Virus record (IMG/VR): IMGVR_UViG_3300025870_000013
Span: 1-64,000 of that record
DNA: 64,000 nucleotides
Source: a virus
Reading direction: 5' to 3' (one strand)
This document shows, piece after piece, positions 2,776 through 61,646 of this stretch. Numbering within the stretch: position 1 is the first letter of the stretch; each line of letters opens with the position of its first letter. The position numbers and the translations under genes are program-made. The notes under the pieces are model-generated. The model was given only the letters and a program-made list of their open reading frames with translations, ran no database searches and was not told where the DNA came from.

Positions 2776-2786
2776 GATATATAATA
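2776..2786 (+). promoter_or_regulatory. GATATATAATA element
   Basis: Exact copy of an 11-nt element recurring in the window, starting 12 nt before the ATG at 2788 and just after a terminator. It could be a phage promoter core or a start-region element; with this short spacing a conventional promoter start point would fall at or after the ATG. Confidence 0.45.
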
Positions 2787-2787
2787 C

Positions 2788-3486
2788 ATGAAACATATTA
2801 GAACATACGAAAGTTTTATTGGTGAAGGAAGATCTGCATATGACGGATTAGCTTCTAAATTAACTAAAGCTATATTCAATAAATGGGTTAAATCATATAA
2901 AGGTGGGAACGCTACAATAAATTATGGAGACCAAATTGAAGAGAGAGGTTTAGAGTTTGATATTGAAGCTACTATTCATATTGATAAAAAATATGAAGGG
3001 TTTCAAGTATTAGATTCAACAGGTGCCGATGGCAGAGACGATGATGATCACGGTGACTTTCAAACACCTTATATTATTATAGACTTTGCTTTAAATCCTG
3101 AGTGGATTCCAGGAGAATGGTCAACAGTATATTTTCATTTAGCGGATGTTGTTCGCCATGAAATGGAACATATTACACAAGATGGGATTGACACTGGAAA
3201 TTACAGAAACGGCAAACCTAATGAAGACGATAGTGAACTAAGAGCCTATATAAAAATGGGACTTTTACCAAAATCTCAATATCTAATGTTACCTAAAGAG
3301 GTAGATGCTAATTTACAAGGATTAAGATATGAGGCTAAGAAGAGAAAAGAAAACATGAGTGATACTGTTTCCAGATATTTAGATACGCAAGAACAAGGTG
3401 GAGTTATTGATGGCACAGAAAGAGAACAGGTATTAGATCTCTGGAGACGAAGAGCAGCAAAAATAGGAGGTATACCTAAATTTTAA
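2788..3486 (+). CDS. putative packaged HExxH metalloprotease
   Basis: The 232-residue protein begins MKHIRTYESFIGEGRS, a member of the N-terminal signature shared by several genes here and resembling the T4 capsid-targeting peptide. Residues 121-130 read VVRHEMEHIT, an HExxH zinc-protease motif (His124, Glu125, His128). A plausible third ligand is Glu171 in a following helix (KEVDANLQG), the arrangement of gluzincin-like peptidases. The N-terminal half looks like a mixed beta domain with an acidic loop near residues 80-90. I infer a protease carried in the capsid and delivered with the DNA, or acting in the prohead. It is not the recognisable T4 gp21 prohead protease. First gene after a terminator. 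Confidence 0.7.
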   Translation: MKHIRTYESFIGEGRSAYDGLASKLTKAIFNKWVKSYKGGNATINYGDQIEERGLEFDIEATIHIDKKYEGFQVLDSTGADGRDDDDHGDFQTPYIIIDFALNPEWIPGEWSTVYFHLADVVRHEMEHITQDGIDTGNYRNGKPNEDDSELRAYIKMGLLPKSQYLMLPKEVDANLQGLRYEAKKRKENMSDTVSRYLDTQEQGGVIDGTEREQVLDLWRRRAAKIGGIPKF

Positions 3487-3487
3487 T

Positions 3488-3943
3488 ATGAAATATATAA
3501 AACTATTCGAAGAGTTTACAGCAAACAAAGTATCTTGTGATAACTGTGGTTGGTCTTGGGAAATAGAAGACGGTGGAGATGATGTGTTTATTTGTCATAA
3601 ATGTAATCATGATAATACACCTATTTTAGGAGAACAATTTATCCTACAAGAATTAGAAGATCAATTCAATATAGAATTAGATTTATATGATAATGGTAAA
3701 TACTTACAACTTAGTAAAATAAAAATACAAAAAGAGGATCGTAATAAAGGAATCGGTTCTAAGGTCATGTCAAGAATTACTGACTATGCCGACACACAAA
3801 ATTTAAAAATATATCTAACACCTTCTAAAGATTTTGGTGCAACTTCTATTTCTAGATTAAATAAGTTTTATAAAAACTTTGATTTTGTCAAGAATACAGA
3901 TAAAAGCCAAACTAAAGATACTATGGTTAGATTACCAAAATAA
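3488..3943 (+). CDS. putative packaged zinc-ribbon GNAT acetyltransferase
   Basis: The N terminus MKYIKLFEEFTANK carries the shared signature. It is followed by a four-cysteine zinc ribbon (Cys17, Cys20, Cys36, Cys39) around a GWSWEIEDGGDD segment, a small module I recall from marine phage proteins. Residues about 55-150 fit the GNAT N-acetyltransferase fold: beta strands leading to RNKGIG at 85-90 (the acetyl-CoA pyrophosphate-binding R-x-x-G-x-G loop), then a helix and a late FYKNFDF segment. If active it would acetylate a protein or small molecule, possibly early after injection. The substrate cannot be inferred. It begins two bases after the metalloprotease stop. Confidence 0.72.
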   Translation: MKYIKLFEEFTANKVSCDNCGWSWEIEDGGDDVFICHKCNHDNTPILGEQFILQELEDQFNIELDLYDNGKYLQLSKIKIQKEDRNKGIGSKVMSRITDYADTQNLKIYLTPSKDFGATSISRLNKFYKNFDFVKNTDKSQTKDTMVRLPK

Positions 3944-3953
3944 TAAAAACAAC

Positions 3954-6776
3954 ATGAGCAATTTTAACGATTTCCTAGGAATGCAAGCTGCAAAACTAAA
4001 TATGACAAGAGAAGAGTATACTGCATATTATTTGTCAGAATCAAAACCTGGTCCAAAACCATATCACAGAGGATTGGATGACGATGAGATTGAAGATAAA
4101 AAAGATCAGATAAAAAAACAATCAGACATGGATGACAATGATTCTAGTGCATATAAAGAAATGCCAGGTGATAAAGAAGCTAGAGAAAAAGGTGAAGTTA
4201 AAACATCTAAGCATGTAAAGAAATATCATGAATTATATGGTGATAAAAAAGATGAGTCAGTGGATGAAGCAACATTCAGACCAAACTCAGGTACTATGAG
4301 TGGAGGTACATATACTTTAGATAATAGAAAATATAAATTAAAAAAAGATATTGAAGGTGTTCAAATTGGTAATTATACAAATATAGTGTTACCAAAGGGA
4401 ACTATTATACACAACATTCCGGGCGGTGTGTTTGCAGATCACCCTTCATTAAAAAGATACGAGAACGGAAACAACAAATATTTTAACAAACCAACATTCA
4501 AGGGAATTTCTATTATAAGAAAAGAGGAAACTATCTTTTCAATAGATAAAAATTCAAAGATATTAGAATCGGTAGTTACTGAAGCTAAGGCATATAAGTT
4601 AAAAGCTTCTGAATTCGGTGGAGATACACACTCAGCAGCATACAATGTAAAAGGTGAAACTACTTGGAGAGTTCATAGTACTTATGCCATCGATCAAGTA
4701 TCTGGTGAAAACAACCCAGAAGAAAGAGATGTAGTTTTCTTTGAAGCAATGCCTATTAATAATGACATATACATTAAGATTGGTGGAATCAATAACCTTA
4801 AAAGAACTAATGGTTCTACATACGGTAATAACTTTGGTACTACTATTGAAGAATGGAAAAAGGATCCAAAGGGAATTGCAAAAGAAGCTTCTGATTTTCT
4901 TACTGATGCAACACACCTTAAATGGATTAACAAAAAAGCAAGAAGTGAAGGTCAAGTAATTAAATGGGCTTTAAAAGATGATTATTCTAGTGTCATTGAA
5001 GATCTAGTTAATAAATCATTAGGTCTTACTGAATCAATAGTTGCTGAAGGTATGTCTAAATCTGCTATTAAAAAAGCTATTAAAACTATTGACAAACAAA
5101 TTGATACTGAAACTGGAGGTGATGGTGAAGCATTAGATAATGAAACACTTCAAGCACTAGAGCAAGAAAGAGAAAGATTACAAGCAATGAATGAAAGTAA
5201 AGATAGAATGATCAAGCAGATCGAAAGAACTCTTAAAGATGGTGATTCTATATTTAAACTTCCAATGGCTACTCAAAAATACTATAATAAAAATAAGAGT
5301 GACTTTGAATCAGTAGTTACTGAAGGTAAGACTATTACTAAAGCATCAATTGAAGAAGTTGGTGATTCAAGAAACCGCGAAGGATATTCTTCTAATGAAT
5401 ATTATATATTAGCAGACTTTGTTGATGGAGAAATTACCATGAAAGATCTTGCAAAATTAGTAAAGTCCAGAGAAGTTCAAAAAGAATTAAAAGGAGAATC
5501 TGAAATCGATATGGAATATCTTGAAGAATTTTCAGAATCAGTAGTTAACGAAGAAAAGATTAAATACGCTAAAGGAAAAACATATCAATCTTCTGGTCAT
5601 TGGACTGTGATGGTTGATAGTAATTCAAGCATGTGTGATATTAGAGTAAATCAGTCAGCTGGTTGGAGATTAGATCCACATGATGATAGAGAAGAAACTT
5701 GGGAATTATTAGATAATGGAAGACAAAGAGCTACTATATATTTTAAGTCTGGTAATATCGATAAGTTTGCTAAACAAATGTTCGATCTTAATGATAGAAC
5801 AACATGGGGTAATAAAACAAAATTAACTGCTAAGGACTATGCAGATATTATTAGAGTTTGGATCGATATGAAAATGGCTAATGAAGGTAATTATAACTTA
5901 GAAGATATTTACGATTTAATAGCACATCACAGATTTGATAAAGATTATAAAAAACTTTCTTCTAAAGACAGAGAGTGGATAGAGAATGATGCTGAAGAAA
6001 GAGGATTCTTAGAATCTTTATCACCTAGGTTTTTTAATTCTTTATTAGTAACATTAAACGAAGATTTGATTGCAGAAAGTAAAGTGCCTAATTTTAAATT
6101 TGGTAAGAAGCTACAATATAAAGCTGATGATATTAATCAAATGTATGGATTTTGGGGAACTTTAGATGTTCATATGGACACTTATGAAATTGAAGAAATA
6201 TGGAACGATGTATGGGGAATATTAACAAGAGGTTGGAAGTTCTCAGATGCTGGAGCGCTATATTATCTAAACGCAAAAGCTGGTAGATGGTTAGCAGATA
6301 AAGTGTGGAACGATATTAATTCTCAGATTTCTCAACCAGATGCTATCGATATGATTTTATCTGATTATGCTAGACCATCTAAATGGAAGGCATGGTCAAA
6401 AGAATATAATACATTTGCTCAGGAAGAATTGGCAGAATGTGTTATTCTAGAAAAGGCTGAAGGCGATAGAGGTCCAATCAGTGATCCTAAAATTGAAAAA
6501 GCACTTAAGACAAAATCAGAAGAAACTGGTGTGCCAATTGGTATCATTAGAATTATTATGAGAAGAGGAATGGCAGCATGGAAAACTGGTCATAGACCTG
6601 GTGCAACTGAACAACAATGGGGATATGCTCGAGTAAATGCATTTTTAACAAAAGGTAAAGGAACTTGGGGAGATGCTGATAAAGATGTCGCTAAAGAAGT
6701 TAGAGACGAAGGTCATGATGACGGGTTAAAGGAACAGAATTACTTTGATCAATCACACAGAAAACAAAATATATAA
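3954..6776 (+). CDS. putative prohead-processed polyprotein, 940 aa
   Basis: I place the start at ATG 3954 (MSNFNDFLGM); a TTG at 3879 in the same frame lies inside the previous gene. The protein is a string of small unrelated segments separated by a recurring motif: ESVDEA at residues 101-106, ESVVTEA 205-211, ESIVAEG 360-366, ESVVTEG 452-458, ESVVNEE 528-534 and LIAES 705-709, with LSES at 27-30. These match the hydrophobic-x-Glu, then small-residue pattern that T4 gp21 cleaves. The last 110 residues (about 830-940) form a Lys/Trp-rich domain (MAAWKTGHRPG, QQWGYARVNAF) that I recall as a recurring uncharacterised phage domain. I infer a polyprotein cut into about eight pieces of 30-175 residues inside the prohead. 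Confidence 0.65.
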   Translation: MSNFNDFLGMQAAKLNMTREEYTAYYLSESKPGPKPYHRGLDDDEIEDKKDQIKKQSDMDDNDSSAYKEMPGDKEAREKGEVKTSKHVKKYHELYGDKKDESVDEATFRPNSGTMSGGTYTLDNRKYKLKKDIEGVQIGNYTNIVLPKGTIIHNIPGGVFADHPSLKRYENGNNKYFNKPTFKGISIIRKEETIFSIDKNSKILESVVTEAKAYKLKASEFGGDTHSAAYNVKGETTWRVHSTYAIDQVSGENNPEERDVVFFEAMPINNDIYIKIGGINNLKRTNGSTYGNNFGTTIEEWKKDPKGIAKEASDFLTDATHLKWINKKARSEGQVIKWALKDDYSSVIEDLVNKSLGLTESIVAEGMSKSAIKKAIKTIDKQIDTETGGDGEALDNETLQALEQERERLQAMNESKDRMIKQIERTLKDGDSIFKLPMATQKYYNKNKSDFESVVTEGKTITKASIEEVGDSRNREGYSSNEYYILADFVDGEITMKDLAKLVKSREVQKELKGESEIDMEYLEEFSESVVNEEKIKYAKGKTYQSSGHWTVMVDSNSSMCDIRVNQSAGWRLDPHDDREETWELLDNGRQRATIYFKSGNIDKFAKQMFDLNDRTTWGNKTKLTAKDYADIIRVWIDMKMANEGNYNLEDIYDLIAHHRFDKDYKKLSSKDREWIENDAEERGFLESLSPRFFNSLLVTLNEDLIAESKVPNFKFGKKLQYKADDINQMYGFWGTLDVHMDTYEIEEIWNDVWGILTRGWKFSDAGALYYLNAKAGRWLADKVWNDINSQISQPDAIDMILSDYARPSKWKAWSKEYNTFAQEELAECVILEKAEGDRGPISDPKIEKALKTKSEETGVPIGIIRIIMRRGMAAWKTGHRPGATEQQWGYARVNAFLTKGKGTWGDADKDVAKEVRDEGHDDGLKEQNYFDQSHRKQNI

Positions 6777-6779: not shown

Positions 6780-7466
6780 ATGAAGTATATTAAATTGTTT
6801 TTAGAATCTAAGGTCAGAGATGATGATACTTACAGCGATTATCCAGAAGCAGCAAAGAAAAATGCTCAAATGGCTATCGACTGGAAAGAAAAGTATGGTC
6901 GTGAAGAAGTGGATGCTGGAACTGCAGTTGGTTGGGCAAGAGCACATCAATTAGCTAAAGGTGAAAACATATCTGGAGATACAGTAAAACGTATGGCTTC
7001 ATTTAATAGACATAGAAAAAATTCATCTATTAAACCAGAATTAAAAGAAACTCCGTGGAAAGATAAAGGTTATGTTTCTTGGTTAATATGGGGTGGAGAT
7101 GAAGGAGTTGATTGGGCAATGGAACTATCTAAAAAGATGAGTAAAGTTGAAGAAATGGTTAGTGTTTTATCTTTAGATCAATTTATTCTAGAGAAAAAGA
7201 AAAGTAAACCAAAAACCGATAAAGAAAAAATAAAAGATCTTTCTAAAAAACAAAAGGGTTTATCTAAGAAAAACAAAGATTTTATTGAGAAAATAAATAA
7301 GATGTCTAAAGATAAATCAAAAGAACCAGCCGATAAAATAGAAACGGCATTGTTAAAATCACAAATGCAACAAACTTCTGTTGATGGCATGAAAATAGCT
7401 GTTCAAAAAAACCAATTAGCTTTGAAAGCAAAGCTAAAGACGATTAAAAAAAGATCAAAGGCATAA
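6780..7466 (+). CDS. signature-bearing putative packaged protein, 228 aa
   Basis: It starts MKYIKLFLESKVRDDD, the shared N-terminal signature. Residues about 17-125 form a compact domain with SDYPEAAKKNAQMAIDW, GTAVGWARAHQLAKGE and VKRMASFNRHRKN, then a Gly/Trp-rich WLIWGGDEGVDWAMEL end. I recall this domain as recurrent and uncharacterised in phage structural or head-associated proteins. After a SLDQFILEKKKS segment, residues 145-228 are a very Lys-rich helical tail that could bind DNA in the capsid. The upstream start region is an AATATATAATA element ending just before the ATG. Confidence 0.7.
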   Translation: MKYIKLFLESKVRDDDTYSDYPEAAKKNAQMAIDWKEKYGREEVDAGTAVGWARAHQLAKGENISGDTVKRMASFNRHRKNSSIKPELKETPWKDKGYVSWLIWGGDEGVDWAMELSKKMSKVEEMVSVLSLDQFILEKKKSKPKTDKEKIKDLSKKQKGLSKKNKDFIEKINKMSKDKSKEPADKIETALLKSQMQQTSVDGMKIAVQKNQLALKAKLKTIKKRSKA

Positions 7467-7470
7467 TAAT

Positions 7471-7953
7471 ATGAAATACATTAAATTATTTGAATCATTT
7501 GTAAATGATAAAGAGATCAAGGACTGGGAAAAAGATAACGGTAAACTACCGATTCCCAAGAAGATCATAGAGATATCTAAGGATATGGCAAAGGAAGGTT
7601 TTATTAGAAAAGATACTAAGGCGGTTCAAGCTAAATTATGGATTGGATTAGAAGGAATTTCATGGATAGAAATGAAGCAAAAGTTTGGAGATATAGTAGG
7701 TAAATTTTATGGTGGAGAATTCTATAATGCTATGACAAACCCTATGGCAGAAAAATCAGCCTATTATGCATATGAAGTTTCGAAGCATGTTAGCGATATG
7801 GTTGCTAATGAAGAATCAGTAGAACCTGCTTACTATCTAATGAAAAATTATTTTAATTCATTTGGATTAAATATTAACAGAAATAAACTTTTCGACAGAG
7901 CAGAAAGAGAACTAGATGCATGGATGAAAAACAACAAAATAGAAACGTTATAA
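7471..7953 (+). CDS. signature-bearing putative packaged protein, 160 aa
   Basis: The first ten residues, MKYIKLFESF, differ from those of the 3488 gene at one position (Ser for Glu), while the bodies are unrelated, which argues for a portable targeting peptide. The rest is a mixed helical protein with NGKLPIPKKIIEISKDMAKEG and LWIGLEGISWIEMKQKFGD segments and no recognised catalytic motif. It starts four bases after the preceding stop. Likely an internal capsid protein by its N terminus; function after delivery is unknown. Confidence 0.68.
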   Translation: MKYIKLFESFVNDKEIKDWEKDNGKLPIPKKIIEISKDMAKEGFIRKDTKAVQAKLWIGLEGISWIEMKQKFGDIVGKFYGGEFYNAMTNPMAEKSAYYAYEVSKHVSDMVANEESVEPAYYLMKNYFNSFGLNINRNKLFDRAERELDAWMKNNKIETL

Positions 7954-7989: not shown

Positions 7990-8508
7990 ATGGACAAAAA
8001 AATATTATCATTCGAAGAGTATGCTGCTAATAAAAATCTAGCAAATACTGACAAATTGGCTGAAGACGAAATCGAAATCAAAGTAGACGGAGAATATGAA
8101 ATCGAAGTAGAAAAAGAAGGCGAAGACGAAAAAGAAGCGGAAACTGAAGAAGTTGAAGAGACTGAAGAAGTTGAAGAGACTGAAGAAGTTGAAGAAACTG
8201 AAGAAGTTGAAGAAACTGAAGAGGTTGCAAAAGCGGTTTCAGAAATGATGACAGAGGCATATGAATCTGCCGTCAAAGAAGCATGTGAATATGACAAAGA
8301 TGACTATCCTGACCACACTGTAGAATCATACCTTAAAGAAAACGCAGCATTAGCTGCAACATTAGTTGCTCAATCAGCAGAAGATGCGAACGCTGAGATA
8401 CATGGAGAAGGACTTACTAAAGAAATGTACGAAGCATGTCTAAACGGTATTAAAGAAGCTTATAATAAAAAGATTGATGAGCTTAAAGAAATGTACGAAG
8501 CAAAATAA
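7990..8508 (+). CDS. acidic repeat protein, possible prohead core component
   Basis: The protein starts MDKKILSFEEYAANKN, a looser version of the shared signature. Residues about 20-80 are extremely acidic and contain four and a half copies of T-E-E-V-E-E. The C-terminal half is helical (EMMTEAYESAVKEACEYD, KEMYEACLNGIKEAYNKK) and ends in a probable coiled coil. Highly acidic small proteins (gp67, gp68) and the scaffold gp22 occupy the prohead core in T4, so a core/scaffold role is my inference from composition and neighbours. A cytoplasmic DNA mimic is the main alternative. It is the last gene before a terminator-like hairpin. Confidence 0.68.
   Translation: MDKKILSFEEYAANKNLANTDKLAEDEIEIKVDGEYEIEVEKEGEDEKEAETEEVEETEEVEETEEVEETEEVEETEEVAKAVSEMMTEAYESAVKEACEYDKDDYPDHTVESYLKENAALAATLVAQSAEDANAEIHGEGLTKEMYEACLNGIKEAYNKKIDELKEMYEAK
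8143..8226 (+). repeat. 18-bp tandem repeat encoding TEEVEE
   Basis: Units at 8143-8160, 8161-8178, 8179-8196 and 8197-8214 plus a 12-nt partial unit. Units differ only by synonymous gag/gaa changes, which fits recent slippage or unequal recombination. Confidence 0.9.
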
Positions 8509-9089: not shown

Positions 9090-10801
9090 ATCAAATTATT
9101 CAAAAAACATTAGACGAAAATGTATTTGGAGAATCTTTTACATTTAGAAAAGGACAAAGAGAAATTGTTACTAAGATATGTGAAACATATTTAGAGGATC
9201 CAAAATCAACATTAGTCATTGATGCACCCACTGGTGCTGGTAAATCACTTATAGCTATGTGGTCAGCACATGTATTAAAAGAACTTGGTAATAGAGGTTA
9301 TATGGTAACTAGTGACCTGAGTCTCCAGGACCAATATGAGTCTGACTTTTATAAATATGGATTACGATGGCCATCAATTAAGGGAGTTGATAATTATGAA
9401 TGTTCTGTTAATGGTCTGCCATTTTCCCTCGGAGATTGTAAACTAAAAGGAATGGGATATGAACAAGCAGAATCTTTATCATGTTATGGATCATGTGAAT
9501 ATCTTCAAAATAGACGAAGAGCGATAGATCAACCTATCTCTTTATTAAATTATTCTTTTTGGTTAATTCAAAGAAATTATGTTGAGGCCAAAATGGAACA
9601 AGAAGAAAGAACAGTGCCATTTGAACAACGTGATTTTGTTTTCTTTGACGAAGCACATAGAGTTGACGATATAGTTCAAAGTCATTTTAGCCCTAGAATA
9701 GATCAGACTATTGTAGACAAAATGGTAACTTTAAATAGATTTGCAAGTAAGCAAGGATTTCAAGAAGCCACATATACAAAAAATAAAATACAACATCTTG
9801 TAAATGAAATGATGTCAGGTGACAAGCATGACGTGTTTTCGGCTATGAGTGAATTTGAAAGAATATTACACGGTTTTGGTAAAGTCAGAAAGATTGCTAA
9901 TAAATTAGCTAAAAGAAGATACGGAAATACTGGAGTACCAAAAGATTGGCAAACTTCATTTGGACATTTTGATAGACTTAAGGACGTTCATTGTAAAGTT
10001 GAAGATTATTTAAGTTTGATCAAAGAAGTTGGAATTGATAAAATGGTTTTAGATCAAAACGAACATGAAGCAAAATTCATGTGTGTAGAAGAAAGTTTAA
10101 TGATTAATAAATATCTACATGAGAAGGCTGACTTTAAAGTTTTTATGAGTGCAACTATTGGAGATCCTAAGGCATTTGTTAAGATAATGGGAATTAAGAA
10201 CGCTAAGTTTATCAGAATGGACAATGTGTTTAATTATGATAAATCTCCTATTGTATTTGTTAATAGACATAAGCTTTCGTTTAGAGAAAGAGAAAAAAGT
10301 TTACCTAAAGTTGTAAAAATCTTAGATCAGATTATATCTAAACATAAAGGTCAGCGTGGTGTTATACACACTGGATCTTATGCATTTACTAATTTTATAA
10401 AACAAAATTCTAAACATACATTTAGACTTATGGATTATGAAAACTCCAAAGAGAAATCGGTAATGTTAGATTTGTTTAAAAAGAAAGAAGGTGCTGTATT
10501 GATGGGACCTTCGTTATTAGAAGGTTTAGATTTAAAGGATGATATAAGTAGATTTCAAATATTCTTTAAAGTTCCATACCCATCATTAGGTGATCCTTTA
10601 ATTAAAGCTAAAATGCAAACGTCAAATGAGTGGTACGATTGGAAAACTGGAATTAGCATTATGCAAGGTGTTGGAAGATCTGTAAGAAATGAAAATGATT
10701 GGGCAGTGACTTATGTTTTAGATGCATGCTTTAGAAGTTTGATATATAAACCAGGATTCTTCCCTCCAAGTTTCACAGAGAGGGTTAAGACTATAAAATA
10801 A
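9071..10801 (+). CDS. XPD/DinG-type superfamily 2 DNA helicase
   Basis: A 576-residue ATP-dependent helicase. Walker A is DAPTGAGKS at residues 51-59, and DEAH at 193-196 is preceded by FVFF. Four cysteines between these motifs (Cys111, 123, 138, 142) are placed as the 4Fe-4S ligands of the XPD/DinG family. Motif III is MSATIGDPKAF, and motif VI is QGVGRSVRNENDW near the C terminus, after a GPSLLEGLDLKDD segment. The family unwinds 5'-3' and acts in repair or in resolving replication obstacles. It is distinct from the UvsW-like helicase later in the window. It overlaps the dCMP deaminase gene, a coupling that fits an early nucleotide/DNA metabolism unit. Confidence 0.92.
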   Translation: MLERSIDQIIQKTLDENVFGESFTFRKGQREIVTKICETYLEDPKSTLVIDAPTGAGKSLIAMWSAHVLKELGNRGYMVTSDLSLQDQYESDFYKYGLRWPSIKGVDNYECSVNGLPFSLGDCKLKGMGYEQAESLSCYGSCEYLQNRRRAIDQPISLLNYSFWLIQRNYVEAKMEQEERTVPFEQRDFVFFDEAHRVDDIVQSHFSPRIDQTIVDKMVTLNRFASKQGFQEATYTKNKIQHLVNEMMSGDKHDVFSAMSEFERILHGFGKVRKIANKLAKRRYGNTGVPKDWQTSFGHFDRLKDVHCKVEDYLSLIKEVGIDKMVLDQNEHEAKFMCVEESLMINKYLHEKADFKVFMSATIGDPKAFVKIMGIKNAKFIRMDNVFNYDKSPIVFVNRHKLSFREREKSLPKVVKILDQIISKHKGQRGVIHTGSYAFTNFIKQNSKHTFRLMDYENSKEKSVMLDLFKKKEGAVLMGPSLLEGLDLKDDISRFQIFFKVPYPSLGDPLIKAKMQTSNEWYDWKTGISIMQGVGRSVRNENDWAVTYVLDACFRSLIYKPGFFPPSFTERVKTIK

Positions 10802-10812
10802 AATCTATTATT

Positions 10813-11739
10813 ATGAAAAAACTACTTGCAATTATCTCGTTAATTATGTTATCATCATGCGGAGCCAGTTGGCAATTGTCTACGCTTAACCATGATCCAA
10901 TATATGAAGACGAAAATTATATAGTGGTTTCAGATGATGTTAAGATAGACACATTAAGTGAATTTCAGTTTAGAAATAAATTAAGAACAGACATTGGTTT
11001 TAGATTAGATTTTGCACGATATGCTTTAAGTCAACCGAGATCATTTGATTGGAATAACAGATTGTTAGGAAGACAATATGATTCTAGATGGAATTCTTAT
11101 TATTGGAATAGAGATCAAATGTGGAATGATTGGGCTTGGGGTTATACAGGCTGGAATTCTTGGGGTTCTCCTCATAGATGGTCACCATTTGGATATGATA
11201 GATGGGGATATAATATGCACTATGGTTGGAATAATCACGGTTGGGGATATAACAACTGGATGGGCAATGTCCATTATGGAAATGGTTACTATAATAACTG
11301 GGGCTGGAATAACTATTATGGAAATGGCTGGAGACGTGGCAACACCGCATACATTTATGGCAGAAGAGGAACTACAACTACAAGAAATGGTAGAGCACAT
11401 GCTTCTATGATAGAATCTACTAAAAGAACTACAAAACCGAGAAGAGTTATTAGAACTAATACTGCACCAATTAATAACAATACCACAAAACCGAGAAGAG
11501 TTATTAGAGAGAAGCCAGTAGTTCCTGTGATTAGAAACAATAATACAAGGCCCAACAATAATACAAGGCCAGTAATTAGAAACAATAATACAAGGCCAGT
11601 AATTAGAAACAATAATACAAGGCCTACATATAACAATAACACAAGACCTACATATAACAATAACACAAGACCTACGAATACTTCTAGACCAACTACGACA
11701 ACTAGAAAAAGTGGATCTAATACTAGAAAAGGTAACTAA
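10813..11739 (+). CDS. aromatic/Asn-rich lipoprotein
   Basis: The N terminus MKKLLAIISLIMLSSCGAS is a lipoprotein signal peptide with lipobox LSSC and modified Cys18. Residues about 30-75 form a short ordered segment. Residues about 77-180 are exceptionally rich in Trp, Tyr, Asn and Gly (patterns such as GWNNHGWGYNNW), and the C-terminal third is basic low-complexity sequence built from TKPRRVIR and NNNTRP repeats. It would be lipidated and exposed on the host envelope. Such proteins are common in Bacteroidota, so the gene may be host-derived. A role in receptor masking or superinfection exclusion is possible but not shown. Large antisense frames here are composition shadows. Confidence 0.78.
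   Translation: MKKLLAIISLIMLSSCGASWQLSTLNHDPIYEDENYIVVSDDVKIDTLSEFQFRNKLRTDIGFRLDFARYALSQPRSFDWNNRLLGRQYDSRWNSYYWNRDQMWNDWAWGYTGWNSWGSPHRWSPFGYDRWGYNMHYGWNNHGWGYNNWMGNVHYGNGYYNNWGWNNYYGNGWRRGNTAYIYGRRGTTTTRNGRAHASMIESTKRTTKPRRVIRTNTAPINNNTTKPRRVIREKPVVPVIRNNNTRPNNNTRPVIRNNNTRPVIRNNNTRPTYNNNTRPTYNNNTRPTNTSRPTTTTRKSGSNTRKGN
11536..11681 (+). repeat. tandem NNNTRP-coding repeats
   Basis: The unit aacaataatacaagg and close variants recur about six times with spacers coding PVIR or PTY, making the Arg/Asn-rich tail of the lipoprotein. Two related TKPRRVIR-coding units lie just upstream (from about 11430 and 11487). Confidence 0.8.
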
Positions 11740-11749
11740 AATAAAATAA

Positions 11750-11980
11750 ATGGGATTTAACAAATTATGGCTTCCTGAAGTAGAAAGCCTACAAGAACAA
11801 CTAGAAAAATTAGGTGAAATAGAATTTGGTAAACATTGGCTGAGACGATTTCAAAAGTCTGATGCCACTATTGGATCAAACGAATCACATGAATTTATTA
11901 AACCTTTTACAGATTTCGCATATAATGAATACAAACAAATATTTGTAAAAAATGAAATGGATACAGATATTAATAAATAA
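11750..11980 (+). CDS. hypothetical protein, 76 aa
   Basis: A small soluble protein starting ten bases after the lipoprotein stop. It contains an amphipathic helix (VESLQEQLEKLGEIEFG) and an aromatic C-terminal part. No motif or family is recognised. It is followed four bases later by the next start, so it belongs to the run of small genes leading towards the tail block. Confidence 0.65.
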   Translation: MGFNKLWLPEVESLQEQLEKLGEIEFGKHWLRRFQKSDATIGSNESHEFIKPFTDFAYNEYKQIFVKNEMDTDINK

Positions 11981-23260: not shown

Positions 23261-24547
23261 ATGAACAACGAAAAAAACAAAAGGATCAGAATTGGGGAAA
23301 AGACACCAAAAGAGACCGTAGTTGAAGAACTAGATGTAAAAATCGAAAACACAGAAATTGAAGAAGATGCTAATCAAGCATTTTATGATGAGAACGGGGA
23401 ATTCATGTGGGATGCATATGAGTCTACTTGCCCGTCAAAAACAAGAAAACCAAATCCACATATTAAAACCAAAAACGGCGATAAAGTCTACTCTAGGGAA
23501 TCTTATGCCCAAGAAATGTATGACATGCTTACTGCACATGATGCTAGTATTGGACAATTACTGACTGTAATTAATCCTGGTGAAATTCATGAAGGTAAAA
23601 TTTATGCAATTAATTCTGAGTTTATTAGTGTTGATATTGGTTACAGGGAATTGATCTACGTCAAGTATGATAAAGAACCTGCTGAAATTCAATCGCTAAA
23701 ACCAGGTGATGACACTGCTGTACTAATTACACAATTGGGTAAAAACTCACATGTTGTTGGTAGTATTAATGGTGGTGTTAAACACAAAGTGTTTATGGAT
23801 CTTAGAGCTGCAGTTGAAGAAGGAAACACAGCATGGGTCGGTACAGTTACAAATATGATTGAAAACGGAGGTTATATGGTAATGGTACAAGGTATAGAAT
23901 GTTTTATGCCAGGATCTTTAGCTGGAATTAATAAACTACATGACTTTAGTTCTATTATTGGAACGGAAATGTATGTAGTTCCTGTTAGTTTCTCACCGGA
24001 TAGAGGTACGTTAGTAGTTTCTCATAGAAAATATTTACAAGCTTTAATACCTGGAGAAATTGAAAACTTAAAACAAACACAAGGTGAAACAGTGACTGGA
24101 AATGTTACGGGTACTGCAAAATACGGAGTATTTGTAGAATTTAATAAGTGTTTAACTGGTATGATTCATAATAATGATTTAGATGAAGATACATTAGCCA
24201 AGTTTAGAGCCAGAGAAATTAAACCAGGTGATGAAATTTCATTTATGGTTAAAGATATTATAAGTAATACTAAAATAACATTAACTCAAAAGGCAAATAT
24301 AGTTGTTAATCCATGGGCAGATATTGTTTCTAGATATCAAATTCCTTGCGTGGTACAAGCTACTGTTAAAACTAAAAAGGATTACGGATTATTTATCACA
24401 ATAGAAGATGGAGTGACTGGTTTGCTACATGTTAGCGAATTAAGTGAAGAAGTAATGAGCGTATTTAAAGCTGGTGACCCTATCACGGTACAGATTACAA
24501 GAATCGATGTTGATTCGATGAAAGTCTTTTTAAAGATGCCGCAATAA
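23261..24547 (+). CDS. ribosomal protein S1-like, four S1 domains
   Basis: After a charged 100-residue N terminus there are four consecutive S1 (OB-fold RNA-binding) domains, at about residues 105-170, 190-257, 273-344 and 359-427. The last two are the most canonical (TGTAKYGVFVEFNKCLTGMI and DYGLFITIEDGVTGLLHVSE). Domain order and number resemble ribosomal protein bS1, which has six in many bacteria, shortened to four. S1 delivers mRNAs lacking strong Shine-Dalgarno sequences to the ribosome, and Bacteroidota and this phage largely lack them. I infer a phage factor favouring phage mRNAs or sequestering host S1 function. It sits in the middle of the baseplate block. Confidence 0.88.
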   Translation: MNNEKNKRIRIGEKTPKETVVEELDVKIENTEIEEDANQAFYDENGEFMWDAYESTCPSKTRKPNPHIKTKNGDKVYSRESYAQEMYDMLTAHDASIGQLLTVINPGEIHEGKIYAINSEFISVDIGYRELIYVKYDKEPAEIQSLKPGDDTAVLITQLGKNSHVVGSINGGVKHKVFMDLRAAVEEGNTAWVGTVTNMIENGGYMVMVQGIECFMPGSLAGINKLHDFSSIIGTEMYVVPVSFSPDRGTLVVSHRKYLQALIPGEIENLKQTQGETVTGNVTGTAKYGVFVEFNKCLTGMIHNNDLDEDTLAKFRAREIKPGDEISFMVKDIISNTKITLTQKANIVVNPWADIVSRYQIPCVVQATVKTKKDYGLFITIEDGVTGLLHVSELSEEVMSVFKAGDPITVQITRIDVDSMKVFLKMPQ

Positions 24548-24565
24548 CTATTGCAACGAGAGTGT

Positions 24566-24576
24566 GATATATAATC
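24566..24576 (+). promoter_or_regulatory. GATATATAATC element
   Basis: One-base variant of the recurring 11-nt element, in the 53-nt gap after the S1-like gene and 35 nt before ATG 24601. Compatible with a promoter core for the amidoligase gene. Confidence 0.45.
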
Positions 24577-24600
24577 AAACGGTAATATCATAATCTTAGT

Positions 24601-25911: not shown

Positions 25912-25912
25912 A

Positions 25913-26755
25913 ATGAGTGAAATTAGAAGCGGTTCAAACCAAGATTTAACTTCTGGTAGAAATTTCGATCCAAATTGTCTAAATACTTTTTTAGAAGAAA
26001 TAGGAGATGATATTACTGGGGCATGTATGGTACCTATTAATTTGCCACAAAAAGAGATTGTTAATATAATTAAAAGAGCCAAAAAATGGTTTTATAAAAA
26101 ATATGAATATTCTGTAAAAGAAAATTTATACCATATTCCAAATAGTGTATTTAGTACATCACACTTTAAAAGCCACAGAGCACTTACGTTGCCTGGGCCA
26201 AGTGCAGACGGAGGTGGAGGTGTATATTCAGTATATGGTTTATATGACTTAGCTTCAGGTTGGAATGGAGGCGGAGGCGGAATGGATGTGAGATTCCAAG
26301 GTGGTTCTGACTTTTCAATGGAGCGAATGTTATTTAGAGGAATGTATGAAGGTTCTGGTATGGCTGAAGCCGCAGAAGAACTACAGTATTATGTATTGAA
26401 CGCTTCTATGGCAGATTTGTCTAGACAAATACTTGAAAACCCTATTTCATTTCATTATTCTAGTTTAACTGGAGAATTAAAATTTATGGGTGATACACCA
26501 AAGGGTGATGTTATTTTAGAGATATATGAAACTATCCCTGATTGTGCGTTATATTCAGATGAAATATTCTTTAGATATGTGAGTGCAAAAATAAAACAAT
26601 CTATTGGTTCTAAATTAGCAATTTTTAAATTTGCTCTTCCTGGTAATGTTGATTTTGATTATGATGCTATTAAAAGTATGGGTGATGATGAGTTATCGGA
26701 AATTAACGAAGAGATTCAAGGAGACGAAGGTGTTGATTGGATGATGCATTCATAA
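25913..26755 (+). CDS. putative virion structural protein, possibly neck-type
   Basis: The N-terminal 80 residues contain VPINLPQKEIVNIIKRAKKWFYKK and LYHIPNSVF; a Gly-rich stretch follows (residues about 95-125). The C-terminal half is ordered (LQYYVLNASMADLSRQIL, GDVILEIYETIPDCALY) and ends with FALPGNVDFDYDAIKSMG followed by an acidic helix. The LPG-then-helix ending reminds me of neck proteins of T4-like phages, but this is recall rather than a comparison. It starts one base after the amidoligase and precedes the gp25-like gene, so a tail/baseplate part is equally likely. Confidence 0.55.
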   Translation: MSEIRSGSNQDLTSGRNFDPNCLNTFLEEIGDDITGACMVPINLPQKEIVNIIKRAKKWFYKKYEYSVKENLYHIPNSVFSTSHFKSHRALTLPGPSADGGGGVYSVYGLYDLASGWNGGGGGMDVRFQGGSDFSMERMLFRGMYEGSGMAEAAEELQYYVLNASMADLSRQILENPISFHYSSLTGELKFMGDTPKGDVILEIYETIPDCALYSDEIFFRYVSAKIKQSIGSKLAIFKFALPGNVDFDYDAIKSMGDDELSEINEEIQGDEGVDWMMHS

Positions 26756-34546: not shown

Positions 34547-34547
34547 T

Positions 34548-56754: not shown

Positions 56755-58263
56755 GTGGAGCTTAGTTTAACTGAAAACAAACAGTTGCTACGTATTGATG
56801 AAGCAACTGAATTAGAACTGGAACAACTCAATATTTCTTTAAATAGAAGAATTGATTCATGGCGATTTAATCCTTTGGTTAAAAAGGGTTTATGGGATGG
56901 ATATGTTTCATATATAAAAGATGATAAATGGATTCCTTCAGGATTATGGAGAGAAGTCATGCAGATATGTAAAGAATATAAATTTGAGTTTAAACTCAAT
57001 GGTATTACTGACATGTTTGATACCAATATTAATCAAGAAAAATTTACAAAATGGGCTTTAGACTTTTTCGAAAAGTCAGAGATAACTCCAAGAGATTATC
57101 AAATAGAGGCAGCATTTAATATACTAAAATTTAGAAGATGCTTAAGTGAGCTTGCAACTTCTGCGGGTAAAACACTGATATCATTCTTAACAGTATCATA
57201 TTTACTAGAACAACAAAAAGCAAAAAAGATTTTATTTATTGTACCCAATGTATCATTAGTTGTACAAGCGAGTGAAGATTTTCTAGACTATAATTATAGA
57301 AATGCAATAGATATTAAGGTACAGCAAATATACAGTGGTCAAAAATTAAGGCCAGGTAGGAATGTTATTATTGGAACATATCAATCACTTGTTAAAAAAG
57401 ATAAAGCATATTTTGCAGAATTTGATGCAGTAATCGTTGATGAAACACACAAAGCAAAATCAGCCTCTATTAAAACTATTTTACAAAAGTGTATTAATGC
57501 AGATTATAAATATGGTTTATCTGGAACTATTCCAAAAGAAGGCACATTAGATAGATTAACTTTAATGGCATATACTGGTCCATTAATTACAGAAATAAGT
57601 GCACATTATTTACAAAACGAAGGGCACATTGCTGGCTGTAAAGTAAAGGTAATTAAAATGGACTATGCACCTCAATCTACAAAAGACGCATTTAGAGAAA
57701 TGTCCCAGAATAGATATGAAAGTAAAGACGTTTTTAAATTTGAGCAAAACTATGTGATCAATTCACCTGGAAGACTTAATTTTATAACAAGCATTATCTC
57801 CAGGGTTAAGGGTAATAGTTTAGTTCTTTTTCATAGAATTGAACATGGTAAAAAAATATATGAAAAACTCAGACAAGAGAGTGATAAATCTGTTTATTAT
57901 GTTGATGGTGGAATTGATAAAGATATTAGAGAAGAACACAAAAAGAAAATGGAAGCTGGAGACCAAGTCGTCATTGTCGCTTCATATGGTACATTCTCAA
58001 CTGGTATATCCATCAAGAAAATCCACAACATATTCTTCACAGAATCATTTAAATCGGAAGTAATTATTAGACAATCTATCGGTAGAGGTTTAAGGCAACA
58101 TAGCTCTAAAGACTCGGTCAATATTATAGATTTTGTAGATGATTTAAGTTCTCCTGATTGGGACAACTATTTAATAAGACACTCCAAAGAAAGACAAAGG
58201 ATCTACAAGGAACAGAAGTTTAAGTATGATATAAAAAATGTAGATTTTGAAGGAGATATATAA
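56755..58263 (+). CDS. uvsW: UvsW-like SF2 helicase
   Basis: A 502-residue helicase with a UvsW-type N-terminal domain (FNPLVKKGLWDGYVSYI), ITPRDYQIEAAF as the Q-like motif, Walker A ATSAGKTL at 134-141, DETH at 229-232, YGLSGTIPKEGTLDRLTL and motif VI RQSIGRGLRQH. In T4, UvsW remodels branched DNA and R-loops, switching replication from origin to recombination mode. I use the GTG at 56755, since the frame has no nearby ATG upstream and the nearby ATG at 56753 is in another frame. Its stop overlaps a GATATATAATA element for the next unit. Confidence 0.9.
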   Translation: MELSLTENKQLLRIDEATELELEQLNISLNRRIDSWRFNPLVKKGLWDGYVSYIKDDKWIPSGLWREVMQICKEYKFEFKLNGITDMFDTNINQEKFTKWALDFFEKSEITPRDYQIEAAFNILKFRRCLSELATSAGKTLISFLTVSYLLEQQKAKKILFIVPNVSLVVQASEDFLDYNYRNAIDIKVQQIYSGQKLRPGRNVIIGTYQSLVKKDKAYFAEFDAVIVDETHKAKSASIKTILQKCINADYKYGLSGTIPKEGTLDRLTLMAYTGPLITEISAHYLQNEGHIAGCKVKVIKMDYAPQSTKDAFREMSQNRYESKDVFKFEQNYVINSPGRLNFITSIISRVKGNSLVLFHRIEHGKKIYEKLRQESDKSVYYVDGGIDKDIREEHKKKMEAGDQVVIVASYGTFSTGISIKKIHNIFFTESFKSEVIIRQSIGRGLRQHSSKDSVNIIDFVDDLSSPDWDNYLIRHSKERQRIYKEQKFKYDIKNVDFEGDI

Positions 58264-58296: not shown

Positions 58297-60351
58297 ATGT
58301 ATAAATTAAAATCTTTTGATCAGTTTTCTACTGAATCACAAATCAATAGATCTAGACAAGTAGAAGAAGAAAACTCTACTAAAAGAACTACCGAAGCAGA
58401 AACATATAAAAATTTACTTGGTGAATTTAAAGTTACTTCTATCAAAGAATTAACTGAAGAGCAAAGAATTGAATTTTTTACTAAGTTAAGAGGCGCTGAG
58501 ATTAACGAAGCAACTGTTTTAATTGAAGAAGGAACTAGAGGACAAATTGGTAAAATCGATAAAAAAGGAAATATCACTTCTGTATATATGCATTATGATT
58601 CATATCCTGAAAACATATTACCTATTATAACTTCAACTTTTAAAGATGGTAAAAATGTAGATTTTATTCTTAAGAATGGAGACAGTTCGGGTTTAGATAA
58701 AGATGTTAAGAAGATTAATTTCTACGGGAACTTTACAGCATCTAAGGGTAAAATTGCTAATATATCTAAATATCTAAGAGATGTTGCTGATGGCGGCGGT
58801 GCTGAATTCGTATACTTATGGGATGAAGCCAACAAAGAATGGTTAATGGCAGACATTTACGGTAAAGGATATGATGATGTTTACCCAGCGTTTGAATCTT
58901 TAACTACTTCAGTAAATGAAGCTATTTCAGTTCAATATAAAAGAGACGCAAAAAAAGTTTTAACAGTTTATAAAAATTTATTTACTAAGAAACTAACAGA
59001 TTTTGGTGCAATGGACAAAGTAGGTACATTAGGTTGTATTAAGTATCTTTTTGAAGAAGCAATGACAGACGCTAATTTCCACAGAGAGAAAGTTATATCT
59101 AAGAATATTAAAGGTACAATAGGTTCATTTGAATTAAAAGTAGCAGGTTTAGGTAATCACTTTTTAACAATAGGTCCTACTACTACAAAAAGAATTTTAG
59201 ATAAACATTATAGTGACCTTGCAAATGCAGCTGGTTGGTCAGGAATCGGAATTGTTGAAGGTACTGCTCTTTATTTAGAGAGTATTAAAGAAGAAGCTTC
59301 AGGTCAAGCTCTATTAAATGCGTTTAACATGTTTGAGTCATTTGCGTATGACGAAGGAGATGCTATCAATGAGAAATCATATGATAAAAAGTCTTTAATG
59401 AAAGCTATGAAAGCAGATGATGGCATGATTCAATTAGGAAATGGACAAGAGTATGTTATTTATGCATATGGTAATGGCAACGATAACAATGATGATATGT
59501 GGGGAGATAAAACAATCTTTGGATTAGATCAAGACGGAGAAGAACATGAGATTAAATATTCTGACATTGTAAGTTATAATGAAGCTACTGTAGTTATGGA
59601 TGCAATGGATCCTAAATCAAAGATACTTAAAAAACTTTTAAAGAAACATAACGTTAAAATGAAAGTTTTAGATCCTAGTGGACCAAGTGGTTGGCCAGAG
59701 GTTGAAATGACAGGTTCAAGAGAAGATCTGCAAGCAGTTTTAGCATCTGAAGATGGTTGGGACGACGCTGGTTTAGAAGAATATATCGAAGAATCAGTAG
59801 TTACTGAATCACACCCAAAATGTTCAAATAAAAAAGGACATGCATACAAAGAAATTGACAAAGACGGAACTGTAGAATGTGAATATTGTGGTTTAAGAAA
59901 TTCATTAAGCGAATCAGAGGTTACTGAAGCTAAATTTGTTAAAGAGTTTGACGAGGCTGTTTTAAAAGCAACTACACAAGAAGAGGTTCTTGAAATTTAT
60001 CCAAACGCAGAATTCTTTATTGGCAAATCAGATCATTTCTTTGGAGAGTTTGATGAAAATTTATTCTTTAAAGCATATTATACCAAAGGACAAAAAGAAT
60101 TTGAAATCAAGTCAATTTATTCTGAAAAAAACAGTAACTATGTTCACTTATATAATGAATCAGTAGTTACTGAAGCTGAAGTTAATTCAGATGAAGAATT
60201 TGAAGAATATGCAGTAACTGTTTTACAAAAAGCATTTGGAGAAGATTTTGACGAATCTAAATCTAAAAAAGTTATAGACGGTATTTTATCTAAAGCAGAT
60301 GGAGATTATGGTACTGCAGTTGGTATGTTAACTAGCTCGTTAGGACAATAA
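58297..60351 (+). CDS. second putative prohead-processed polyprotein, 684 aa
   Basis: It starts MYKLKSFDQFSTESQI, a version of the shared signature. Cleavage-like sites are EINEA (68-72), SVNEA (near 207), ESVVTES (499-505), ESEVTEA (539-545) and ESVVTEA (621-627). The segments between them look like separate small domains. One has RGQIGKIDKKGNITSVYMHY DSYPEN character near residues 80-105. One is a helical domain at about 207-340. A 35-residue zinc-finger-like piece (CSNKKGHAYKEIDKDG then CEYCG) is flanked by two sites, and the last piece is acidic and helical. I infer processing by the prohead protease into several internal proteins, as for the 3954 gene. Confidence 0.65.
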   Translation: MYKLKSFDQFSTESQINRSRQVEEENSTKRTTEAETYKNLLGEFKVTSIKELTEEQRIEFFTKLRGAEINEATVLIEEGTRGQIGKIDKKGNITSVYMHYDSYPENILPIITSTFKDGKNVDFILKNGDSSGLDKDVKKINFYGNFTASKGKIANISKYLRDVADGGGAEFVYLWDEANKEWLMADIYGKGYDDVYPAFESLTTSVNEAISVQYKRDAKKVLTVYKNLFTKKLTDFGAMDKVGTLGCIKYLFEEAMTDANFHREKVISKNIKGTIGSFELKVAGLGNHFLTIGPTTTKRILDKHYSDLANAAGWSGIGIVEGTALYLESIKEEASGQALLNAFNMFESFAYDEGDAINEKSYDKKSLMKAMKADDGMIQLGNGQEYVIYAYGNGNDNNDDMWGDKTIFGLDQDGEEHEIKYSDIVSYNEATVVMDAMDPKSKILKKLLKKHNVKMKVLDPSGPSGWPEVEMTGSREDLQAVLASEDGWDDAGLEEYIEESVVTESHPKCSNKKGHAYKEIDKDGTVECEYCGLRNSLSESEVTEAKFVKEFDEAVLKATTQEEVLEIYPNAEFFIGKSDHFFGEFDENLFFKAYYTKGQKEFEIKSIYSEKNSNYVHLYNESVVTEAEVNSDEEFEEYAVTVLQKAFGEDFDESKSKKVIDGILSKADGDYGTAVGMLTSSLGQ

Positions 60352-60371: not shown

Positions 60372-61646
60372 ATGAAGATCTTTACTAATTTCAATGAATT
60401 TATAACTGAGAGTGTATACAATAATACAACTGAATCCCTTATTTTAGAAGGTGGAGCAGCGGGCCATATGTCACATCCATTTGATGAAAAAGATTTAACA
60501 TTCGGTGACTTTAAAAAAATTGTTGAAGCTGGTCTTCAAGGAGAATTAAACTTTGAAGAAGTTGCAACTGAAAAAACAGATGGCCAAAATCTTCTTGCAA
60601 CTGTAAAGGATGGAGTGGCAATGTTTTCAAGAAACAAGGGTCAATTAATTAGCCCAGTAGATTTACAAGGAATTATTAAAATGTTCACAGACCACGCTTC
60701 TAAATTAGTAGAAGAAACATATATTTTTGCTGCAACTGATTTAGCAGATGCTCTACCAAAAATTAAAGATCAGTCTGTGTTTAATAATGGTAAGGATTTC
60801 GTAAATATAGAATTAATCTATTCTAAAAATCCAAATGTAATTTATTACGAAAGAGATGTTCTTCAATTCCATGACATTCAAGAAACTGATGGTAACGGTA
60901 ATATAACAGGCAGTAGAAAAATTGCAGGAGAATTAGTTAAAGCTTTAAAAGAAGTAGATGCTGATGTTCAAAAAACATTTACAATAATCCCGCCTCAGGT
61001 TTTAAAACTGGGTAAAGATCTTAATTTTGAAGAAAATAAAAATAAATTCATCAAAAAGATCGAAGCACTGAGAGATCGTTATGGTTTATTAGATGCTGAT
61101 TCGGTTTCAAGATATCACGAAATGTGGTGGAGAGAAACTATAGATAGAAACTTTCCAGATACAGAACAAGATTATAAAGAAGGTTTATTATTAAGATGGG
61201 CTTATGGTGATAAGAAGACTTTAAACATGAGATCTTTAGATAAATCGTTAGGTAAAGATAAAGCATCTCTTATTAAGAAATTTGATAAAGAAGATGTTAA
61301 AAAGAAATATAAAGAAAACATTAGACCGTTTGAAGATTTATTCTTAGAACTAGGATCTATAATTCTTAAAAATGCTTCTAATTTTGTAGCAGCAAATCCA
61401 GACAAGGAAATGCAAAGATTACATAATCAAATAAGAACAGAAGCTGAAGCTATTATAAAAACAGGAGGTGAAGCTCAAATTGCAAAAGTAGAAGCTGAAC
61501 TTGCCAGATTAGATAGAATTGGAGGAATAGAATCTATTATACCAACTGAAGGAATAGTTTTTGTGTACAAAGGAAAAACAATGAAATTAACAGGTACATT
61601 TGCAGCCATTAATCAATTAATGGGTATCATAAAATACGGAAGATAA
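60372..61646 (+). CDS. signature-bearing nucleotidyltransferase/ligase-like protein
   Basis: The N terminus MKIFTNFNEFITESVY resembles the T4 targeting peptide and has likely cleavage after FITE or LILE. Residues 65-71 read ATEKTDG, the KxDG motif I of the DNA/RNA ligase and capping nucleotidyltransferase superfamily (candidate AMP-accepting Lys68), followed by Arg87 (FSRNKG). A motif III-like FVNIELIY contains Glu147, and the C terminus has EGIVFVYKGKTMKLTG (motif IV-like Glu393, motif V-like Lys405). I recall related signature-bearing proteins (GGHMSHPF start) in marine T4-like phages, uncharacterised. I infer an adenylating enzyme packaged in the capsid. It could have lost activity. Confidence 0.68.
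   Translation: MKIFTNFNEFITESVYNNTTESLILEGGAAGHMSHPFDEKDLTFGDFKKIVEAGLQGELNFEEVATEKTDGQNLLATVKDGVAMFSRNKGQLISPVDLQGIIKMFTDHASKLVEETYIFAATDLADALPKIKDQSVFNNGKDFVNIELIYSKNPNVIYYERDVLQFHDIQETDGNGNITGSRKIAGELVKALKEVDADVQKTFTIIPPQVLKLGKDLNFEENKNKFIKKIEALRDRYGLLDADSVSRYHEMWWRETIDRNFPDTEQDYKEGLLLRWAYGDKKTLNMRSLDKSLGKDKASLIKKFDKEDVKKKYKENIRPFEDLFLELGSIILKNASNFVAANPDKEMQRLHNQIRTEAEAIIKTGGEAQIAKVEAELARLDRIGGIESIIPTEGIVFVYKGKTMKLTGTFAAINQLMGIIKYGR

Follow-up and report, generated by a model that had tools for sequence, protein, structure and literature searches.

The question raised by this locus is why a phage would encode one long protein interrupted again and again by the same short glutamate-ended motif. 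The protein has 940 amino acids (aa). Its open reading frame (ORF; 3954-6776, + strand) lies in the 64,000-nucleotide stretch analyzed here (the window), which comes from IMG/VR record IMGVR_UViG_3300025870_000013, a 65.4-kb fragment record of an uncultured virus. We consider it quite probable that the product of this ORF is a cargo polyprotein that an uncultured T4-like phage directs to its head. Sequence comparison with relatives showed that modules are exchanged at Glu sites, that leaders are shared, and that polyproteins are linked, in one case by fusion, to head assembly genes.

The first-pass annotation had divided the ORF at six sites, and all of them were present where it had placed them: ESVDEA (starting at aa 101), ESVVTEA (205), ESIVAEG (360), ESVVTEG (452), ESVVNEE (528) and LIAES. 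The P1 residues of the five ES motifs are Glu105, Glu210, Glu365, Glu457 and Glu533, and that of LIAE/S is Glu708 (a slash marks a proposed cut). Five motif matches compare with a mean of 0.098 and a maximum of 2 in 2000 shuffles of the protein's own sequence. Twelve records, namely the window plus 11 relatives (G002 being a near copy of G001), together encode 822 proteins; in these, ES[VIL][VIT]xE occurred 83 times, compared to 3.6±1.9 (maximum 9) in shuffles, and 17 proteins carried at least two copies. Homology added boundaries at Glu29 (LSE/S), Glu414 (MNE/S), Glu644 (ANE/G) and Glu833 (ILE/K). With these, the pieces measure 29-155 aa; thus, the proposed division was retained, and its size range of 30-175 residues was not. 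Three of the 10 proposed cuts (ANE/G, ILE/K and VNE/E) deviate from hydrophobic-x-Glu/small at P3 or P1'.

A scan of IMG/VR yielded 16 loci related to the ORF. L002, L003 and L004 are collinear with it, L004 diverging between aa 213 and 528, whereas the other 13 share separate segments only, several of them permuted. L005, for example, has the order aa 83-362, 531-648, 363-484, and L016 carries aa 427-457 ahead of 366-416. Module 3 was found in five more records (G004, G006, G007, G008 and G009) with 88-96% identity and differing downstream sequence; the residue preceding it is Glu in all seven distinct copies listed, including that of the window. The G011 match to module 1 starts two residues before Glu29. 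By comparison of the sequences, the same segments are permuted, deleted or inserted in the relatives, and homology ends at the motifs.

This was quantified using homology breakpoints. In 19 motif-bearing proteins from 11 records, 59 of the 207 breakpoints were located at most 6 aa from a motif, compared to 15.1±3.7 (maximum 27) for random positions. Because breakpoints from masked BLAST could be artifacts of the mask, the analysis was redone without masking, using decoy masks and after joining collinear pieces; decoy masks of equal size gave 12, 11 and 8 breakpoints near a motif. An enlarged set of 48 non-redundant polyproteins (from 103 sequences) gave 145/677 versus 45.2±6.4. Breakpoints were collapsed per protein, and related proteins stay in the set, so these figures are not strict probabilities. 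Even more than 12 aa away from a motif, breakpoints had [LIVMF]xE[ASG] within 5 aa in 118 of 468 cases (expected, 51.5±6.7). Away from the ES motifs the effect was restricted to Glu, with a ratio of 2.33 as opposed to 0.37-1.18 for 12 substituted residues. The residue following the motif Glu (P1') is A, S or G in 93/118 cases, and the residue two positions ahead of the motif is hydrophobic in 76/118 (background, 25%), which indicates that most linkers are double sites of the form hxE/SVVTE/A (h, hydrophobic). The proposal that the chain is divided into small pieces at sites resembling those of T4-type prohead proteases is thus backed by module shuffling at the motifs and by the Glu-specific breakpoints, together with the leaders common to the group and the head-operon linkage of relatives described below. 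In a module graph, the 48 polyproteins gave 211 pieces in 120 clusters, 84 of which were seen once; since this graph is split at motifs by construction, its context counts are descriptive, and the independent tests are the breakpoint and Glu-substitution analyses.

T4 offers a precedent for such sites. Sequences of the same form are present in T4 gp23 (FLTEA), gp22 (FVTEA and ITES), ipI (TITEA) and ipIII (YQEFIAEA). The T4 protease gp21 cuts after L/I-X-E, and targeting by the ipIII leader depends on residues 4 and 7, processing on residues 8 and 10 (PMC9026906). Mature ipI has 76 residues (PMC3012670); with 95 residues in the full protein, this fits a cut after Glu19.

Leaders with the spacing of the ipIII leader are common in this phage group. 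The pattern [YF]xxF[ILVTAM]xE was found at the N-terminus of 31 of the 822 proteins, compared to 1.6±1.2 (maximum 6) after shuffling and to 30 of 7690 internal windows. Leader types of the group include MKHIKLFEQFINE. Several small neighbors in the window begin with MKxIxxF/Y-type leaders, and the products of genes 2788 and 60372 match the full pattern. MTREEY-type leaders related to that of the 940-aa ORF stand on a different protein in G006 and G012.

Modules of the polyproteins also occur in solo genes. The GIFDSIA module follows ESVVTE in the L012 polyprotein, and the L068 solo gene reads MKKVKLFEQFIQEVKLELNE/GIFDSIA, with 96.6% identity. Similarly, L080 and L081 carry GTRxQFG after INE, behind a leader. 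In 17 of the 40 distinct solo sequences the match starts at the first residues of the module, and 12 of these have Glu directly before; the other 23 match differently. Some stand-alone module copies, judged from sequence, are preceded by a T4-like capsid-targeting leader, and their first residue is the one at which the module starts in the polyproteins. A single targeting signal had been proposed for the whole set of cargoes; this holds in part only: adjacent solo genes have leaders of their own.

A second leader type, GGMGxVxLP...GSGD, followed by a Lys-rich run in three of four cases, copies a near-N-terminal peptide of the group's major head protein. Six distinct cases (two head proteins and four leaders) were found in 1758 proteins and none in 20 shuffles. 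This leader may be another route into the capsid.

We analyzed the head genes of related records for a suitable protease. PF03420 (gp21 family) exceeded the cut-off in 4 of 13 and 6 of 10 chosen related records, 10 of 23 in total; the likely close pairs G005/G006, G016/G019 and G020/G021 reduce the number of independent cases. Six of the seven records longer than 100 kb had a match, G014 being the exception. In G007 a T4-type portal gene (PF07230) comes first; next are genes for a small acidic protein, the protease (PF03420, phrog_207) and a leader-bearing protein, and after these the genes for the Gp23-type major head protein (PF07068), a glycosyltransferase (PF00535) and a polyprotein whose three linkers read ESVV[TN]E. 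The small acidic protein is labeled core by position alone, as it occupies the place of T4 genes 67 and 68. Six records (G006, G007, G017, G019, G020 and G021) have homologs with a leader at their start in the interval separating portal and protease; the leader is strict in five of these records (G007 counted from an internal Met) and loose in G006. No match to the putative core protein was found in G015. In G008 the putative core protein forms the last part of a polyprotein located between portal and protease (ORF of 838 aa, 800 from a leader-type internal Met). The junction MFNE/AVKVTPESDVKIDD sits at the position of the leader Glu in G017, FIAE/DAKTVTPDSDIKIDD. The portal gene of G009 is followed by a polyprotein with 12 sites, which has at least 1315 aa and extends past the contig end.

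The prohead proteases at G007 24337-26184, G006 32705-34753 and G008 10545-11774 have, by eye, a long scaffold-like C-terminal extension. This arrangement is not new, as phrog_207 spans nearly the whole extended protease; in T4, genes 21 and 22 are separate. Huge uncultured phages hold the closest matches to the extended protease.

Structure prediction had been suggested as a check on whether the motifs fall in linkers. The check failed for the 940-aa ORF (see below) and was informative for a second polyprotein of the window (684 aa). This protein has a leader, MYKLKSFDQFSTES, in which Phe7 and Phe10 are invariant among 23 aligned rows (22 of the 30 listed relatives were used), and it carries ESVVTE at Glu504 and Glu626 and ESEVTE at Glu544. 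Its model (predicted local distance difference test [pLDDT], 67.4; 23 rows) consists of folded blocks separated by low-confidence stretches, the inner ones being residues 70-78, 201-212, 347-377, 390-405, 423-428, 499-550 and 611-627. Nine of its 13 [LIVMF]xE[ASG] sites, including Glu504, Glu544 and Glu626, fall within low-confidence stretches, which make up 21% of the residues. In addition, 45 of its 58 breakpoints lie at most 5 aa from such stretches (expected, 34%). A fold search with this model found no PDB match at E <= 0.001, and BFVD returned one uncharacterized phage protein (E, 7e-4). VIA fold matches (acylphosphatase, KH and PII-like; Z <= 6.5, residues ~424-508 in the rows shown) were rejected as too weak.

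The main rival to a cargo polyprotein is that the chain serves as sacrificial filler of the prohead core, with cut fragments that exit the head like those of T4 gp22, gp67 and gp68. The G008 fusion, in which a polyprotein takes the operon place of the putative core protein, suits this explanation, and so does the fate of T4 core proteins, which are cut into several fragments, most of them leaving the head (PMC9026906); SPN3US propeptides, too, are cut at several sites (PMC10052503). However, the modules are diverse, are swapped among phages and are also found as solo genes, some with leaders, and filler needs no such variety. Moreover, several blocks of the second polyprotein are predicted to be folded domains. 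We therefore regard the sacrificial role as unlikely.

The linker is conserved as DNA as well. The 18-bp sequence GAATCAGTAGTTACTGAA was found unchanged in 34 of 76 ESVV[TN]E linkers. The first Val is encoded by GTA in 70/76 and the second by GTT in 74/76, compared to usages of 37% and 57%. Mean pairwise identity was 0.927 (0.789±0.009 when simulated from codon usage). Third-position identity was 0.882 between linkers flanked by unrelated modules (2517 pairs) and 0.738 within homologous modules (66 pairs); in the 20 most diverged module pairs it was 0.777 in the motif and 0.678 in the modules. Motif copies share ancestry, which weakens this test, and recent spread of one linker could be part of the cause. 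Still, synonymous-site conservation beyond codon usage suggests that the linker probably also serves as a recombination joint. An earlier study reportedly described recombination at conserved linkers around T-even internal-protein genes.

This conservation would also be expected of an uncut, fixed multidomain protein in which the ES linker is a mere recombination joint or a flexible hinge. We think this very improbable: breakpoints that lack the ES linker keep hydrophobic-x-Glu-small, with Glu alone effective among 13 residues; a small P1' residue and a hydrophobic residue that creates a second Glu/Ser site accompany most motifs; and some solo genes have Glu at the same junction.

Database searches identified one familiar part of the chain. 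The recurring C-terminal phage domain mentioned in the first-pass annotation is Pfam DUF5824 (56.4 bits; gathering cut-off, 25), the sole family above cut-off in the ORF and in a search of nine polyproteins. PHROGs gave phrog_3041 (cytidyltransferase, matched via its C-terminal end) and phrog_8020. Among 50,697 phage records, matches were limited to the C-terminal aa 786-924, in seven records: HTVC008M (two), Melnitz phages (four) and phage C48C1. In HTVC008M, a stretch resembling module 1 by eye precedes DUF5824. No usable relative was found by PDB sequence search or genome contig search. That the chain is a polyvalent protein (Iyer et al. 2017), injected whole or self-cut, is not strictly exclusive of a cargo polyprotein and is in our estimate the least probable explanation: such phage chains hold many domains and are probably packaged (PMC5512222), and a neighboring gene has an HEMEH motif, but neither Pfam nor PHROGs detected a peptidase or known conflict domain in the ORF, and the junctions obey the prohead-protease rule.

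Several observations weigh against a head-targeted cargo polyprotein. The leader of the 940-aa ORF keeps the aromatic residue 4, Phe7 and hydrophobic residue 8 and has Met at position 10, its first Glu site being at 29 (T4 ipI likewise lacks Glu at position 10). Genes 3488, 6780 and 7471 encode leaders that are likewise off-pattern at the Glu position (FTANK, FLESK and FVNDK). Val often occupies P3, a position at which T4 favors L/I. No PF03420 match was found in the window's own 65-kb record nor in 13 of the 23 other records tested, including the 175-kb G014, and the putative core protein matched no Pfam or PHROG entry. In the second polyprotein, 4 of 13 hxE-small sites and ESIKE at 332 are located in confident structure; thus, the short motif alone is not proof of cleavage, and accessibility must count too. 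The AlphaFold2 model of the 940-aa ORF was set aside: after a first alignment (A1) had misplaced several short fragments, nine of 25 rows were dropped (A2), and the model from the remaining 16 rows had a mean pLDDT of 38.6 and cannot place the sites, the helical part of DUF5824 being moderately confident. ES[VIL][VIT]xE was absent from frames of at least 60 aa in T4 (24 kb) and in isolate stretches L134-L136, in which the DUF5824 part has its nearest cultured relatives. Neither the leaders nor the motifs were seen in 40-kb pieces of each of the gp23-bearing huge phages LR756500 and Lak-B2. Finally, no module was tied to a known effector or anti-defense function.

If the chain is a cargo polyprotein, its short leader of the T4 capsid-targeting type would, by analogy with T4, carry it entire into the prohead core. 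There, before DNA packaging, an S77 (gp21-type) prohead protease would cut the hydrophobic-x-Glu/small sites, many of them doubled, and about ten small domains of 43-155 residues would be freed. These would stay with the DNA and reach the host, as T4 internal proteins do. The linker, conserved as DNA, would allow recombination to swap, add and drop modules in frame. Cleavage, packaging, delivery, effector function and the role in recombination are what we infer from the analysis as a whole. We also lean toward a cassette system, in which one sequence would act as both DNA joint and double protease site, an incoming module would be packaged and released without its own leader, and some cassettes would reside in the core gene. 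T4 ipI blocks a restriction enzyme (PMC3012670) and ipIII is required on one E. coli strain (PMC9391042), so anti-defense appears to be the likeliest role of the modules. As to the host, T4-like viruses with 32-33% guanine-plus-cytosine content have marine Bacteroidetes as predicted hosts (PMC7198788), which for the present phage is a hint only.

The features of the window, together with the second leader type of its relatives, are listed below.

Table. Modules, leaders, neighboring genes and the repeated sequence element of the window, with the second leader type in related records
Feature	Record	Coordinates	Strand	Remarks
Leader	Window	3954..4040	+	aa 1-29, end LSE29/S; aromatic 4, Phe 7 and Leu 8 like T4 ipIII, Met at 10
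Module 1	Window	4041..4268	+	aa 30-105, end ESVDE/A
Module 2	Window	4269..4583	+	aa 106-210, end ESVVTE/A
Module 3	Window	4584..5048	+	aa 211-365, end ESIVAE/G
Module 4	Window	5049..5195	+	aa 366-414, end MNE/S; travels apart from module 5 in relatives
Module 5	Window	5196..5324	+	aa 415-457, end ESVVTE/G
Module 6	Window	5325..5552	+	aa 458-533, end ESVVNE/E; also carried by G006/G012 polyproteins of another family
Module 7	Window	5553..5885	+	aa 534-644, end MANE/G; ES motif at same end in L005, L011, L013
Module 8	Window	5886..6077	+	aa 645-708, end LIAE/S; L085 match covers 647-703
Module 9	Window	6078..6452	+	aa 709-833, end VILE/K
Module 10	Window	6453..6773	+	aa 834-940, DUF5824
Second polyprotein	Window	58297..60351	+	684 aa, leader MYKLKSFDQFSTES
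Leader-bearing neighbor	Window	2788..3486	+	T4-type leader TYESFIGE/G; HEMEH read by eye
Neighbor	Window	3488..3943	+	Leader MKYIKLFEEFTANK; acetyltransferase matches below threshold
Solo gene	Window	6780..7466	+	Module fused into polyproteins of L005, L013, L014
Solo gene	Window	7471..7953	+	MKYIKLFE start; module at polyprotein C-end in L005, L013, L014
Leader-bearing protein	Window	60372..61646	+	T4-type leader NFNEFITE/S, then ESLILE/GG
GATATATAA	Window	2776..2784	+	Directly ahead of gene 2788, first in the polyprotein-bearing cluster
GATATATAA	Window	58255..58263	+	Ahead of second polyprotein; possible promoter element
GGMGxVxLP-type leader	G012	4340-6475	-	
GGMGxVxLP-type leader	L068	10183-11439		
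GGMGxVxLP-type leader	L072	4770-5510		
GGMGxVxLP-type leader	G007	4676-5215		
Major head protein with GGMGxVxLP-type peptide	G007	26879		
Major head protein with GGMGxVxLP-type peptide	G006	31122		

Among the neighbors, the 2788-3486 protein gave no Pfam match; its motif suggests that it is possibly a small metallopeptidase carried in the head. The glycine-zipper-like protein of 52675-53043 (below threshold), with the leader-like start MKTFNTYLIENAVNE, is possibly a membrane-active head protein. The 7990-8508 protein contains a TEEVEE acidic repeat run resembling acidic stretches of the relatives' protease and core proteins.

The sequence GATATATAA is over-represented and strand-biased: 9 copies on the + and 0 on the - strand of the window, and 23 and 0 in G007, where 2.6 and 3.8 per strand were expected, respectively. 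Other copies precede the protease gene of G007, some of the leader-bearing genes and several large genes without an assignment, and the sequence is a candidate promoter element of the phage group. As a marker of leader and polyprotein genes it was rejected, because the excess (9/52 versus 66/736) was unconvincing. The T4 late-promoter word TATAAATA was not enriched (14 occurrences versus an expected 16.9).

Capsid-targeted cargo, prohead proteases and polyvalent proteins are already known. For shuffled modules joined by prohead-protease sites and a DNA-conserved linker, and in one case attached to a putative core protein, no description was found in the literature searched, most subscription papers and bioRxiv being outside it. 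If our reading is true, the small proteins that virions of this group deliver would form a large, testable pool, plausibly directed against host defense or toward takeover. The system would also provide a natural blueprint by which one gene loads many proteins into a phage head, with unusually compact protein packing, and a case of a short DNA linker that does both recombination and proteolysis.

Among known systems, the T4 internal proteins ipI, ipII and ipIII share the [YF]xxF-type N-terminal leader, the hydrophobic-x-Glu site and the accessory, variable cargo. They differ in having one cargo per gene, whereas here each chain has many cargoes and its internal sites double as DNA joints. Polyvalent proteins such as P1 DarA, DarB and DdrB likewise combine several domains in one phage protein and are thought to be virion-carried, and the analogy to polyproteins was drawn by Iyer et al. 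2017 (PMC5512222); however, theirs contain known conflict domains and often their own peptidase, and the domains described here are unfamiliar and are joined by sites that fit a prohead protease. A gp21-like protease cuts SPN3US and phiKZ head proteins at several xxE sites, but what is cut repeatedly there is an N-terminal propeptide that is removed, not a series of exchangeable domains. In the Kyanoviridae, cytidyltransferase-DUF5824 proteins (HTVC008M and Melnitz) combine the module-1-like stretch and DUF5824 in one chain; there, in contrast, the domains follow a cytidyltransferase, and ES[VIL][VIT]xE was absent from the 12-kb stretches examined. T4 loads its injected proteins gene by gene, and the present group appears to have modularized that system.

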